Shown here piece after piece: positions 39,340 through 61,800 of a stretch of 64,000 bases of DNA (position 1 is its first letter; every line of letters begins with the position of its first letter). The notes beneath the pieces were generated by a model, which did no database searches, was not told the DNA's origin, and saw nothing but the letters and a program-made list of their open reading frames with translations. The stretch comes from Leucosporidium creatinivorum (lineage: Eukaryota; Basidiomycota; Microbotryomycetes; Leucosporidiales; Leucosporidiaceae). A program made the translations under genes and the position numbers. Location of the stretch: the NCBI GenBank assembly GCA_001600635.1, contig BCKL01000014.1, positions 572,202 through 636,201 of the forward strand, read 5' to 3'.

Positions 39340-42300
39340 ATGGCCTCTAGAGACCCTTACAACACCCCCGGCATGTCCCTCGTCACTGCTGGTGAGCCTT
39401 CTCGCTCGCCTCTCCCGCCTCGCTCGCTTGCTCGAGAGGAAGCTGACCGCCTCGCGGTGGGACAGGAATGGCGACGCTCTCGACTGACGAGGAGTGCATC
39501 CAGCGTCCTGGGTTCGGATCGTAAGTCCCCCCAGCTGCTTCCCGAGCGCTCGCGAGCGGAGGGGGGGGGTACGACGAGAGCTCGCTCACTGATACATCTC
39601 GAATCTGCACATCTCAACAGCCGAGGACGTCCCTTCCCCGTCGAGTGCAATGCCTTCGAAGTGACGCCTCCCGAGCTCATCGTACGTACTCTCGTTTGTG
39701 AGATCGCCGAGCGGGAGCCAGTCGGCGTCGCGGAGTGGTGGAGACAAGGAGCTGACGCCTTGTATCGATGTGCAGTGCTACCACTACGATGTGAAAATTC
39801 TTCCCGACAAGCCTGTTGTACGTTCTCTGTAGTATGGCGGCGTACAGAGGGCAAGAGCTGACCCCCTTCTCGGCTTCGGCGTTGAGCAGACCCCTCCTCG
39901 CCTCAACCGCCAGATCTGGGAGTTCCTCGACAAGCAGATGGTAGGTAGAGATGCTACTAGTCATACTGCACTCGATCGCCTGCCACAAGAGACGACTCCC
40001 AGCCGAAACTCGGCGCGAATCGAGCTCGGCGATAGTCAAACTCGGTGCTGACCATCTCTGCACTCAATCAGGGCGTTTTCGGTGGAACCGCGATCTGTTA
40101 TGACGGAAGGTTCGTTGGGCTTTATTCTAGACTACTAGGCATCTCTAACGCATGTATTTTTGCAGAGCTATGGCGTATTCACCGAAAGCGCTTCCCGCCG
40201 AGGAAGGCAAGTGGGAGATCAACCTCCCTGAGGACGACGGCACGACGAGCGCCAAGGGTCGTCACTTCACCGTCATCATCAAGCTCACTCGTACCATCGA
40301 CATTGGTGAGTCGACTCGCTGACTTGCTCGCCGACTTCGCTCGGCGCTCTTCTCTTTCGGCGCGATGAGCTGACTCTCATGCCCCGCTCGTGCAGGCCGC
40401 CTCGTCGTCTTCGTTCGTGGTGAGGGAGCTGGTGGAGGCAACTTCCCCGACGCCTCGGAGGTCCAGAGCGCGACTCAGGCTCGTGAGTCCGCTACGGCTC
40501 GGTGATGTCGGAGTGCTCCCTCACCGCTTCTATCGCTCTCCCTCATCCTCGCAGTCAACGTCCTCGTGTCTCATGGACCCAGCAGTCAGTATCTCGACTT
40601 CTGGACCTCTCTGAGCGACCCACTGACGCCAGCTTCGAACAGTGCTCTACCCCAACCGCGCCGCTTCCTTCTTCCTCCCTCCCGAGAACCGTCAGGCGGC
40701 GAGTTTGCTCAAGGGTCTCGAGGTAAGTCAACTGATCTACTCTCGAAGCTGTACTGTACCATAGGGCAGGAGTGCAGTTGCCGACCTGCAGAGCCGAAAG
40801 CTGACCTCGACCTGCTCGGCGCTCCTCCCCTCATCGCAGATGTGGCGCGGCTTCTACACCTCGCTCCGCCCCGGTCCCAACAAGATCTTCGTCAACGTCG
40901 ACATTGCCTCTCAGCCCATGTACCAGTCGGGCAACCTCGCCGACGTCGTCCTCGACTTCCTCCGCGCTGCGACTCGCGGCATCACTCTCACCGATTTGGC
41001 GGCGACCAAGATCCCCCCTCGTGGCTACATCGAGCTCGACCGCTTCCTCAAGGGAGTGAAGGTTCGGTTGAAGGCGAAGGATAAGGATGGGAACGAGCCG
41101 GTGCGCAAGATCAAGCAGTTGGACAGGGCGAGCGCGGCCGACCACACGTTCACCATTGAAGATGGGTCGACGCATAGCGTCGAGGTGAGTTGAGAGGTGT
41201 GGCGAGGTGATGAGAGGTGGACAACTCACCCTCTCCTACAGTCTTACTTCAGGCTTCAATATGGCGTCACGCTCAAGAGGCCCGACTTCGCACGCTAGCT
41301 CATCGCCGAGCGGCTCGTTCGAGTCGAAGCTGACCTGCGTTCGCATCCACAGCCTTGCGTTAAGGTCTCGAAGACTGCCCTCTGGCCTCTCGTAAGCTCT
41401 CGAACTCGTTGAAACCCCGTTCTGCCTACACACCGCTGAATGGGTCTCGCCGTCCTCGCCTGCAGGAGCTCTGCGAGGTCGAGGCTGGCCAGAAGTACTC
41501 CAAGAAGCTCGACCCCGATCAGACTGCTTCTGGTGAGTATTGCTCGCAGAATCTCGCCCTCGTCTCGGCTGAAGCTGACCTTTCCCCTCACTCGCCTCGC
41601 CCTCCTTCGCCGATTTCAGCCATCAAGCTCACGACCGTCGGCCCTAGGGACCGCGTCCCGATGCTCAAGCACGGCCTCACTCGCATCCAGCCTAGCGAAG
41701 GTCCCAACAGCGCCCTCGCCCAGTGGGGAGTCACCGTCAAGCAAGAGCCGATCCTCATCCAAGCGCGCGAGCTTCAACCTCCCGTGGTCACCTACAAGCG
41801 GTGCGCTGGAGCTCGGATCTTGATCTCAGTAGTCTGTTGTACTGATCCTCAACTTCGGCCAACAGTCCCGTGCAGCCGCGCGAGGGCGTTTGGGACATGA
41901 GGGGAGGGCACCGGTTCTACCTCCCCGCCAAGATCGACCGCTGGCTCATTCTGGTCGTGAGTAGCCTTTCCCTACTCATCTCGTGCTGGACCGAGCTGAC
42001 TGTCGCGTTCGAACGCCCTACAGTTCGACAGCGACCGCTTCTTCCGTCTCGAGGAAGCTCAAGGCTCCATCATGGGACTCGTCTCGGCCTGCTCTCAGGT
42101 CGGGCTGCAGATTAAGGACCAGCGTCCTCCTATTCACTACGTACCTCGTGGCTCCGACGTCAACTCGTACATCCTCAGCAAGGGAGCCGAGCTCGTTAGG
42201 ACCGCCGGTGGACCTCCACAGATGCTCATCTGCTTCCTTCCTCGCAAGGTGAGTGGGGTCACGAGGCTGGTAACTGGTAATCGAGAGAAACAGCCTCACT

Positions 42301-43834
42301 CTATCTCGTAGCCCTGCGACGAGTACGCCGTGATCAAGGTGAGCCTTTCGCAGTCGTCTCGGCGATCCCCTGGCTGATCTTTCTCGCTCTCAGCGCTTCG
42401 GAGACGTCGACAAGGGAGTCGCTACCCAGTGCCTGTTCATCAACAAGGCCAAGAGGGGCAACCCTCAGTACTACGGCAACCGTGAGCTTCCCTTTCATCT
42501 ATGTGCAGCCTCGCGCCCCCGCTTCCGAGCTGAGCTCGCTTTAGCGCTAACCCACTCACCAACTGACCCTTCCCTCTCCCTCCATCATCTTTCCATCCCA
42601 ACAGTCGCCCTCAAGATGAACGTCAAGATGCGCGGGATCAACAGCATCCTCGATCCTACGAGCCTCGGACCCATCGCCGAGAAGCCCACGATGCTCTTCG
42701 GCGTCGATGTCTCGCACCCTTCCCCTGGCTCGCTCGCTCCCTCCGTCGCTGCTCTCGTCGGGTCTATGGACTCCAAGGCTACCCTCTACGGCACCTCGGT
42801 TCGCATCCAGTCTTCTCGTCTCGCCATCGTCAAGCACATGGACGACATGACGGCGACCCTCATCAAGCAGTTTGAGGACAAGTTGAGGATCAAGCCTCAG
42901 CGTCTGATTTTCTTCCGGTGCACTTGAGCTCACTGCACTGTCTAACGAGAAGCGGCTGACCGCTGCTGCTCGGCTTCGAATCGCAGCGATGGAATCTCGG
43001 AGGGGCAGTTCGCCGAGGTGCTCTCCACCGAGGTCGCCTCCATCCGCACCGCTTGCAAGAAGCTCGGAGCCGACTACTCGCCGTGAGTTGATGTTCGAGG
43101 TCGTCCAGGAGGCAGCAGAAACGCTGAGCCGAACTTCTTTCTTCATCTCCCTTCTCGCAGCGACCTCACCTACATCGTCTGCGGCAAGAGGCACCACATG
43201 TCGTTCTTCCCCAAGTGTGTCATCTCTACACACCTCCTCGCTAGAGCTGACTCGACCCCCCCCCTCGCAGGAACCCCATCGACGCCGACCGTCGCAACTA
43301 CAACTGCAAGGCGGGGACGACGATCGACACCGACATCACTTCCACTTACAGCTTCGACTGGTACACCCAGTCGCATGCTTCGCTCCTCGGAACCGGTCGC
43401 TCGGCGCACTACACCGTCCTCGTCGACGACTCCAAGTTCTCGGCCGATACGCTCCAGCAGCTCGTCTTCAACCTCTGCTTCACCTACGCTCGCTGCACGA
43501 GGTCTGTCAGCTACGCCACTCCCGCTTACTGTAAGCTCAACCCTCTCTCACCCTTGCTCGACTCGAGCTGACCTTCGTCTCTCACAAAAGACGCCGATCG
43601 CGGTACGCCCTCTGCTGCTGCTCGGCGCCGAGTTGCTCTGCTGACTCTTCCTGCCGTACAGTCTGCACCCGCTCGCAGCTCCTCCTCAAGCGCGACTTTG
43701 ACGACTCTTCCACCGTCATCTCCTCGCACAGCGGGGCTTCGGAGGAGAAGATTCGGGGCCAACAATTGGCTGAGTACACCTCGCGCTTGAAGGAGATCCA
43801 CGAGAACCACAAAGAGAGCCTTTTCTTCTTGTGA
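39340..43834 (+). CDS. AGO1: Argonaute
   Basis: Guide-RNA-binding effector of RNA silencing. Start ATG at 39340 ([18 protein letters not shown]); roughly two dozen short introns, about 900 residues. In order: N domain ([26 protein letters not shown]), L1/DUF1785 ([19 protein letters not shown]), PAZ ([16 protein letters not shown]), MID with the 5'-phosphate pocket residues (EYAVIK and ATQC correspond to human AGO2 YAEVK and TQC), then PIWI ([27 protein letters not shown]-like [20 protein letters not shown]). The C-terminus is NHKESLFFL, with TGA at 43832-43834. Catalytic positions: Asp at 42706-42708 and Asp at 42988-42990 are present. The glutamate-finger position is Ala (GCC, 42823-42825), and the last ligand is Asp (43596-43598). 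Slicing may therefore be lost. No Dicer or RdRP is in this window. Confidence 0.95.
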
Positions 43835-58800: not shown

Positions 58801-61800
58801 CATCCTCACGGAAGGAGACTCGGCCAAAGCTCTCGCCGTCTCGGGACTCTCGGTCGTCGGTCGCGATAACTTTGGAGTCTTCCCCCTCCGAGGAAAGCTC
58901 CTCAACGTCCGCGAGGCTAGCGGCAAGAGCTTGTTGGAGAATGCAGAGATTCAGGCGATCAAGCAGATTATGGGGTTCCAGCAGGGGAAGGTGTATCAGA
59001 ATACGGATTCGCTGAGGTATGGCAGTTTGATGATCATGGCCGATCAGGTGAGTTCTGACGCTGTTCGAGGAGGGGATGAGCGCCGAGCTGACCCCTTCTC
59101 GGCCTTCGCGCAGGATCACGATGGATCGCATATCAAGGGTCTCATCATCAACTTCCTCGACTACTGGTTCCCCTCGCTCCTCAAGCTCCCCAACTTCCTC
59201 GTCGAGTTCATCACTCCGATCGTCAAGGTTCGTCCTCTCGCTCTGGTTCGGCTCGCTTGACCAGAACGGTTCGCTTACGGTCTTCATCTCGCTCGCAGGT
59301 TACGAAAGGCAAGAAGGAGATCTCCTTCTTCACGATCCCCGAGTACGAGACGTGGAAGGAGGAGACGCACGACGGCCGAGGATGGAAGATCAAATACTTC
59401 AAGGTGGGGTCTCTCGCTTCTCGCACTGCTCAATCGTTCGCTCACATTTGCTCCACACACTACAGGGACTGGGAACCTCCGACGCCGCCGACGCCAAGAA
59501 GTACTTTGGCGACATGCGCCGTCATCGTCTTCCCTTCAAGACCTCGACCGACGCCGACCGTGAGCTGATCGACATGGCGTTCAACAAGAAGAAGGCCGAT
59601 AACCGTAAAGAGTGGCTTCGCGGCTTCGTTGTACGTCCTCTTCTGCTTCCTACCTCCTTCAGCGAGCGCCGAGAGCTGACCCGCCTTTCGTCCGCTCGCA
59701 GCCCGGCACCTTCATGGATCACAACGTCGCCCAGGTGCCCATCTGCGACTTCATCAACAAGGAGCTCATCCTCTTCTCGATGGCCGACAATATTCGTTCC
59801 ATCCCCTCGGTCGTCGATGGGTTCAAGCCCGGACAGCGCAAGGTTCTCTTCGCTTGCTTCAAGAGGAAGCTCAAGGCTGAGATCAAGGTGCGTTTGGGCC
59901 GTCTAAGGAGCATGAGAGGAAGAAGCTGATCGCGTGCGTTGAGAACAGGTCGGACAACTCTCGGGTTACGTTTCCGAGCACTCGGCGTACCACCACGGAG
60001 ACGCCTCGCTGCAGGGCACCATCATCGGTCTCGCTCAGCAGTTCGTCGGTAGCAACAACTTGAACGTCCTCGACCCCAACGGACAGTTCGGAACGCGTTT
60101 GCAGGTGCGTTTGAACTCCCTCCCGCCGAAGGAGCGAGAGAGCTGATCAACTCCGAACACAGGGAGGAAAAGACGCAGCCTCGGCTCGTTACATCTTCAC
60201 CAACGTCGCTCAGATCACTCGTACCGTCTTCCAGGCCGCCGACGACAACGTCCTTGACTACCTCAATGACGACGGACAGAGCATCGAGCCGAGCTGGTGA
60301 GTCCGAGCCGAGCTTTTCGCGACGAGAATGACAGCTGATCGCCTCGCACCGATACAGGTACATCCCCATCCTCCCCATGGCCCTCGTCAACGGTTCGGAT
60401 GGTATCGGAACGGGTGAGTGGTCTCGTCTGAGCTATCGAGCGCTGAGCTGACACTCCTCTCTCGCACGCAGGATGGTCCTCCTCGGTCCCCAACTACAAC
60501 CCTTCCGACATTGTCGCAAACCTCAAGCGCAAGATGGCCGGCGAGGAGTTGGAGCCGATGCACCCCTGGTACCGAGGCTTCCGCGTGAGTTCGATCGTGA
60601 CTTTCGCTGCCGAGCTGCTGCTAACGGTCTTCGACTATAGGGCACCATCGAGAAGGCTGACAAGGACGGCTACAAGGTCGGCGGATTGATTGAGCGCATC
60701 GACGACAGCACGATCGAGATCACCGAATTGCCCGTGAGGACTTGGACGCAGAGCTACAAGGAGCAGCTCGAGGGATGGGTCGTCGGAACCGAGAAGGCGC
60801 CTGCTCTCGTCAAGGTGCGTTTCCGGTTCGAGAGAGAGAGCTTGCGGGGAGGGGAGAGGGAAGGCTGAGGACGGCGAGCTGACCCCCTTTGCGCCATTAA
60901 CAGGACTACAAGGAGTACCACACCGACACGACCGTTCACTTCATCATCACCCTCACCGAGAAGGGCAAGGACGCAATCAAGAAGGAGGGACTCGAGAAGG
61001 CCTTCAAGATGACGGGCAAGCTCAACACGTCCAACATGGTCATGTTCGACCCTCAGGGCAAGATCAAGAAGTACACGACTCCCGAGGAGGTTATCGAGGA
61101 CTTCTACGACGTCAGGCTCGAGTACTACCACAAGCGCAAGGTAAGCCTTTTCCGTCTCCAACTCCCGCCGAGCATGCAGCTGACCTCTCCGCTCGCAACA
61201 GGCCTACGTCGTCAACGAACTCACCAACGTTCACGACAAGCTCTCCAACCAAGCTCGCTTCATCCAGATGATCATCACCAAGGAGCTCGTCCTCTCGAAC
61301 CGCAAGCGCTCCGTCATCGTCGCCGACCTGCGCTCCAAGGACTTCCGCCCCTTCCCCAAGGTCGCCAAAGCCATCGTCGCTGGTGCGGTCGACGAGGAGG
61401 AGGAAGAGGAGGACGTCGAGGCCGAGAGTGGACTCGACAGCGATTACGACTACCTCCTGGGCATGAGCCTCTCGAGTTTGACCGCCGAGAAGGTGCGTGC
61501 TGCTCTCCTCGCTGATTCAGAGATGGAAAACTGACGCTTCTCCCCACAATGCACAGGTCGCCAAGTTGATCGCTGAGCGCGATCTCAAGGAGGACGAGCT
61601 CACTGCTCTCCTCGCGCTTTCGGCTCAGGATCTCTGGGTTCGCGATCTCGCCCAGTTCGACGAGGAGTGGTCGGTGAGTCAGAATCGCCTCTTCTTCACC
61701 ATGAGCCCCCGCTAACCCATCCCTCGCATCGGCAGGCCCTCCTCGAGGCCGACACGGTCAACCAGCAGAAGTCACTCAAGGCTGCAAAGGGCAAGGGCAA

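Follow-up and report, generated by a model that had tools for sequence, protein, structure and literature searches.

The locus raises the question of what an Argonaute can still do when the glutamate finger is the one catalytic residue that it has lost. The gene lies in a 64,000-nucleotide stretch of the Leucosporidium creatinivorum genome (C14:572202-636201, hereafter the window), and its relatives were sought across an assembly of 27.7 Mb in 63 contigs. By spliced alignment it occupies positions 39340..43834 of the window on the + strand, as do all of its features described below, and has 25 exons encoding 884 amino acids plus a stop codon. The coding part without the stop codon is 39340-43831, and the frame across its 24 introns is free of stops. 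Twenty-three of these introns are GT-AG and one, within the PAZ coding region (41290..41352), is GC-AG, whereas its equivalent in the nearest paralogue, L012, is GT-AG. A first model was built manually by homology and realigned afterwards, so that the final splice sites depend on that draft and not on an independent prediction. Pfam recognises five of six domains above the cut-off (ArgoN, ArgoL1, PAZ, ArgoMid and Piwi), with ArgoL2 under it at 27.2 bits versus 33.3. Among PDB sequences the top relatives are human AGO1 to AGO4 (AGO1, E 7.6e-135), and the best PIWI protein is Siwi (2e-33). By these E-values the protein is nearer to AGO than to PIWI proteins, and belongs to the AGO clade; it is probably a fungal Argonaute.

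When run with phmmer against PDB sequences, the PIWI part aligned to human AGO2 (4ola) with an E-value of 2.7e-71. The catalytic residues of AGO2 are named as Asp597, Glu637, Asp669 and His807 in the excerpts of PMC7015924 used here. In this alignment the first Asp corresponds to D617, in DVSHP (GAT, 42706..42708), and the second to D688 (GAT, 42988..42990), the codon of which lies just 3' of the intron at 42918-42986. The position of His807 is taken by D826, in YYAD (GAT, 43596..43598), which the alignment and the spliced model place in a 12-base exon (43591-43602). At the position of Glu637, however, stands Ala656, in RLAIV (GCC, 42823..42825), and the site reads D-A-D-D rather than the D-E-D-D/H of slicers. 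Thus Asp, Asp and Asp/His of the slicer DEDX motif are present at positions 1, 3 and 4, but Glu is missing from position 2. The initial annotation had proposed these assignments from an alignment by eye, and its residues and coordinates were all correct, including the alanine, which falls opposite Glu637 in an ungapped alignment. The finger codon lies inside a contiguous exon, exon 20 (42605..42917 in the spliced alignment), with no intron at the site; the same exon encodes Lys586, Lys590, the first catalytic Asp, the finger loop and the stretch to the second Asp. From the finger column to the second Asp there are 32 residues, without a gap, in AGO2, the window protein and the two paralogues L010 and L012. 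The finger of AGO2 is described as held by His600, Ser610, Arg668 and Glu683 (PMC7015924, in excerpt), and the alignment shows equivalents of all four to be kept in the window protein. An AlphaFold model of the finger exon alone (103 amino acids, predicted without an alignment) had a pLDDT of 54, too low for the finger site to be judged from it.

The pocket that receives the guide 5'-phosphate appears to be complete. Tyr549 and Lys553 of the MID domain (YAVIK, 42324..42338) align with YAEVK of human AGO1, and Gln565 (42427..42429) lies in a TQC motif aligned with that of AGO1. These are joined by Lys586 and Lys590 and by Arg831 (43670..43672), which the alignment and the spliced model equate with AGO2 Arg812. 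All six residues are therefore retained as column matches against AGO2 and, for the first three, AGO1, in agreement with the earlier suggestion that the YxxxK and TQC residues were intact. We take their AGO2 counterparts to be Tyr529, Lys533, Gln545, Lys566, Lys570 and Arg812.

The initial annotation had called for a search of the genome for further Argonautes, Dicer and RdRP, and all three gave matches. Searches with a Piwi profile and with the full-length protein gave the same eight loci, that is, the window gene and at least seven other Argonaute loci (locus counts are lower bounds): L009, L010 and L012 on C14, L013 and L014 on C4, and L015 and L016 on C25. Every one of the seven has Glu at the finger column. 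These are not seven independent observations, since the loci fall into four groups by similarity (L012; L009/L010; L013/L014; L015/L016). The models differ in quality. Human-guided models of the window gene, L009 and L010 lack the short last exons, and for these the fourth residue (YYAD) was read from other spliced models. The human-guided model of L015 is mis-spliced around the position of AGO2 Glu683, giving Gln, whereas an alternative model has Glu. Models on C4 and C25 are rough outside PIWI, and those of L013, L015 and L016 contain one or two in-frame stops that vary with the guide protein. L010 reads openly for 866 residues without a stop and has a D-E-D-D site. L012 (C14:684650-688695; L012:1151-5196) has the Glu finger but has lost its PIWI end, the reading ending after APIRHAIARG; it also has an intron adjoining the finger codon that is without counterpart in the window gene or L010. 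A search downstream of L012 did not find the PIWI end: the best values on the two strands were 35 and 44, compared with 33-55 in ten shuffled controls and 535 for the positive control.

The window gene, L009, L010 and L012 lie together within about 77 kb (C14:611541-688695), and inverted pairs occur in three of the four Argonaute groups. L009 and L010 share 2767 bp in inverted orientation, 99.9% identical (C14:651528-654294 and 658839-661605); the second half of the intact L010 lies in one arm, and in the other is a copy lacking the N-terminal part. L013 and L014 form an inverted pair at 93-94% identity (C4:859505-865453 and 880740-886500; the arms touch the edge of the examined stretches), as do L015 and L016 at 88% (C25:30434-34964 and 77107-81662).

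Other parts of a silencing pathway are present in the genome as matches rather than as gene models, namely RdRP matches on four contigs (C2, C3, C4 and C9) and Dicer-dimer matches on two (C2 and C7), each of the latter with RNase III matches about 2 kb away. Within the window, Rfam at its gathering thresholds and ARAGORN gave no match. Ten of the window's open frames of at least 200 amino acids were compared with Pfam; five had families (Prenyltrans; Ras, Roc and Arf; DUF1365; purine permease; topoisomerase) and five had none. The topoisomerase-type coding exon (Pfam DNA_topoisoIV) lies at 60901-61512 on the + strand. When viral contigs were scanned with the PIWI part as the sole query protein, which can detect no more than close relatives, there were eight pattern matches, none of them confirmed. 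Elsewhere in the genome, an ammonia-lyase exon on C34 had 1t6j and 1y2m as its best PDB matches (E 3.5e-46; next 3.6e-22; one gene, with few comparators), which we take to be from Rhodotorula toruloides; this is compatible with a basidiomycete yeast origin but falls short of proof.

The duplication that separates the window gene from L012 is old, with a dS between them of 0.83 for the N-terminal part and 0.67 for the region from the finger onward. Identity between the introns of the two genes is very uneven: among the 19 compared, introns 8 and 9 are 96-97% identical, 15 to 18 are 97-100% and 5 is 92%, with the other twelve at 60-80%. Near-identical patches that include introns point to gene conversion, and such patches depress the divergence underlying the dN/dS values: for 709 codons the ratio is 0.24, and for the 57 that run from the finger onward it is 0.33. 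With L010 as the third sequence for polarising the differences, the window copy has 25 of its own and L012 has 12, and 52 are unpolarised. Together with the ratio of 0.33, this imbalance could reflect relaxed constraint rather than specialisation. Nevertheless, simulated unconstrained mutation at 0.1-0.3 substitutions per site introduced 7-19 stops on average (300 runs at each level), compared with none in the window frame. At 0.05 substitutions per site the mean was 4 and the count was sometimes 0, so that constraint may have been lost recently. The intact frame, the dN/dS values and the simulations therefore indicate that for much of its history the gene has been maintained as protein-coding, though the constraint may have relaxed somewhat.

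These data bear on four alternatives to a guide-loading Argonaute with impaired slicing. It is quite unlikely, in our judgement, that the gene is a decaying duplicate that lost an active-site residue because the copy was no longer needed. The excess of copy-specific changes over L012, the higher dN/dS from the finger onward and the truncated or partial Argonaute copies in the same cluster would all fit such a history, but 884 codons without a stop, 24 of 24 introns with GT-AG or GC-AG ends, and the retention of the six 5'-phosphate and four finger-support residues would not. An error of sequence, assembly or splice model seems far less probable still, even though duplicated Argonautes cluster around the gene and such a region is prone to misassembly. 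The finger codon is GCC in the window gene compared with GAA in L012 and GAG in L010, a difference of two bases, and the codons adjoining it on either side also differ; a single-base read error is thus inadequate to account for it, and the exon is contiguous and intron-free at this site. Chance or a single read error as the origin of GCC was set aside on these same codon differences.

The initial annotation had also raised the possibility that another acid nearby serves as the finger. The candidates would be Asp662 and Asp663 of KHMDDM, at +6 and +7 from Ala656 and the nearest acids on its C-terminal side, but the ten residues preceding Ala656 contain no acid, and the ungapped spacing to Asp688 is that of AGO2. 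Moreover, L012 has Asp at +6, and L010 Glu at +4 and +7, each in addition to its finger Glu. Since paralogues with a Glu finger have acids there too, those at +4 to +7 look like background rather than a replacement, and we consider this suggestion highly improbable. A protein that still slices, albeit more slowly, is less easily dismissed, though on balance it seems to us unlikely. Here the three Asp would bind both metals, with water or a mobile side chain in place of the finger. Consistent with this, the D-D-D triad and the finger-support residues are intact, and excerpts of PMC7015924 report that slicing by the Siwi finger mutant E708V was reduced, with some activity kept. Against it, no other acid is close by in the sequence, and the human glutamate finger is described as critical for target cleavage, although dispensable for RISC assembly (PMC10772731, in excerpt).

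Taken together, the results favour a functional, guide-loading Argonaute of the AGO clade in which slicing is weak or absent, acting beside paralogues of the slicing type; we put the probability of this reading at about 0.6. The protein would load a 5'-phosphorylated small RNA and find its targets by pairing. Cleavage of these targets would be weak or absent because alanine occupies the place of the glutamate with which the active site would be complete. Silencing might then proceed by holding the target or by recruiting partners, and cutting would be left to the paralogues with a full D-E-D-D site. We infer all four elements of this scheme, namely expression, guide loading, loss of slicing and division of labour, and the third is worded conditionally because the Siwi mutant was impaired rather than inactive. 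For the same reason, the earlier proposal of guide binding without slicing survives in part: impaired slicing best fits a kept pocket and a lost finger, but complete loss goes further than the Siwi result allows. More tentatively, the window protein may be a dedicated non-cleaving Argonaute that silences by holding on to targets, nascent or cytoplasmic, beside slicing paralogues, in function the fungal equivalent of Drosophila Piwi. The genome has at least four Argonaute groups, and the window paralogue is one in which, among the guide-binding and active-site residues checked, the finger alone has changed.

Loss of the finger glutamate is already known in nature from the descriptions of Drosophila Piwi and Hyaloperonospora arabidopsidis AGO2. 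Drosophila Piwi (D-V-D-K), according to excerpts of PMC7015924, does not slice efficiently in its natural form, and resembles the window protein in having a non-acidic finger residue while being guide-loaded. It differs in belonging to the PIWI clade and in having a changed fourth residue and changes at two of the finger-support positions, whereas the window protein keeps all three. In H. arabidopsidis AGO2 (D-G-D-H), the sole catalytic change reported in the excerpts of PMC6284064 is likewise at the finger and to a small non-acidic residue. However, it is an oomycete AGO of the AGO II clade, in which Asp is usual at the finger and the majority are D-D-D-H (PMC6284064). Among fungi, VvAgo1 of the basidiomycete Volvariella volvacea (D-E-D-D) shares Asp at the fourth position with the window protein, but the Glu finger is described as conserved in its subfamily (PMC7522536, in excerpt). 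Amplified fungal AGO copies with catalytic losses are mentioned in the portion of PMC12210899 consulted, which cites AGO-like copies of Gigaspora margarita without the PIWI catalytic residues. These too are fungal duplicates that have lost catalytic residues, whereas the window gene is a single intact copy in which the finger alone is changed among the four catalytic positions. At the other three positions the window protein conforms to the DD[DEK] pattern that a survey gives for most fungal Argonautes (PMC4290597, in excerpt).

As for gene number, excerpts of the same survey list two Argonautes in each of two rust fungi (PMC4290597), two are given for Microbotryum lychnidis-dioicae (PMC4469406, in excerpt), and far higher counts of AGO1-like genes are given for rusts and their relatives (PMC12210899, in excerpt). 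A search of the open-access literature returned no paper treating the glutamate finger together with a fungal Argonaute, and none on an Argonaute in Leucosporidium.

What is less usual in the window protein, as far as the alignments tell, is that the finger alone is lost and the residues that support it are retained. Human AGO1 and AGO4, also of the AGO clade, are called catalytically inactive and yet keep the finger Glu (excerpts of PMC9262622), whereas the window protein has lost the finger only. Because even these inactive proteins keep the glutamate, a natural loss of the finger by itself would test what the finger is worth on its own, and the paralogues with a full site would serve as internal controls within the same genome.
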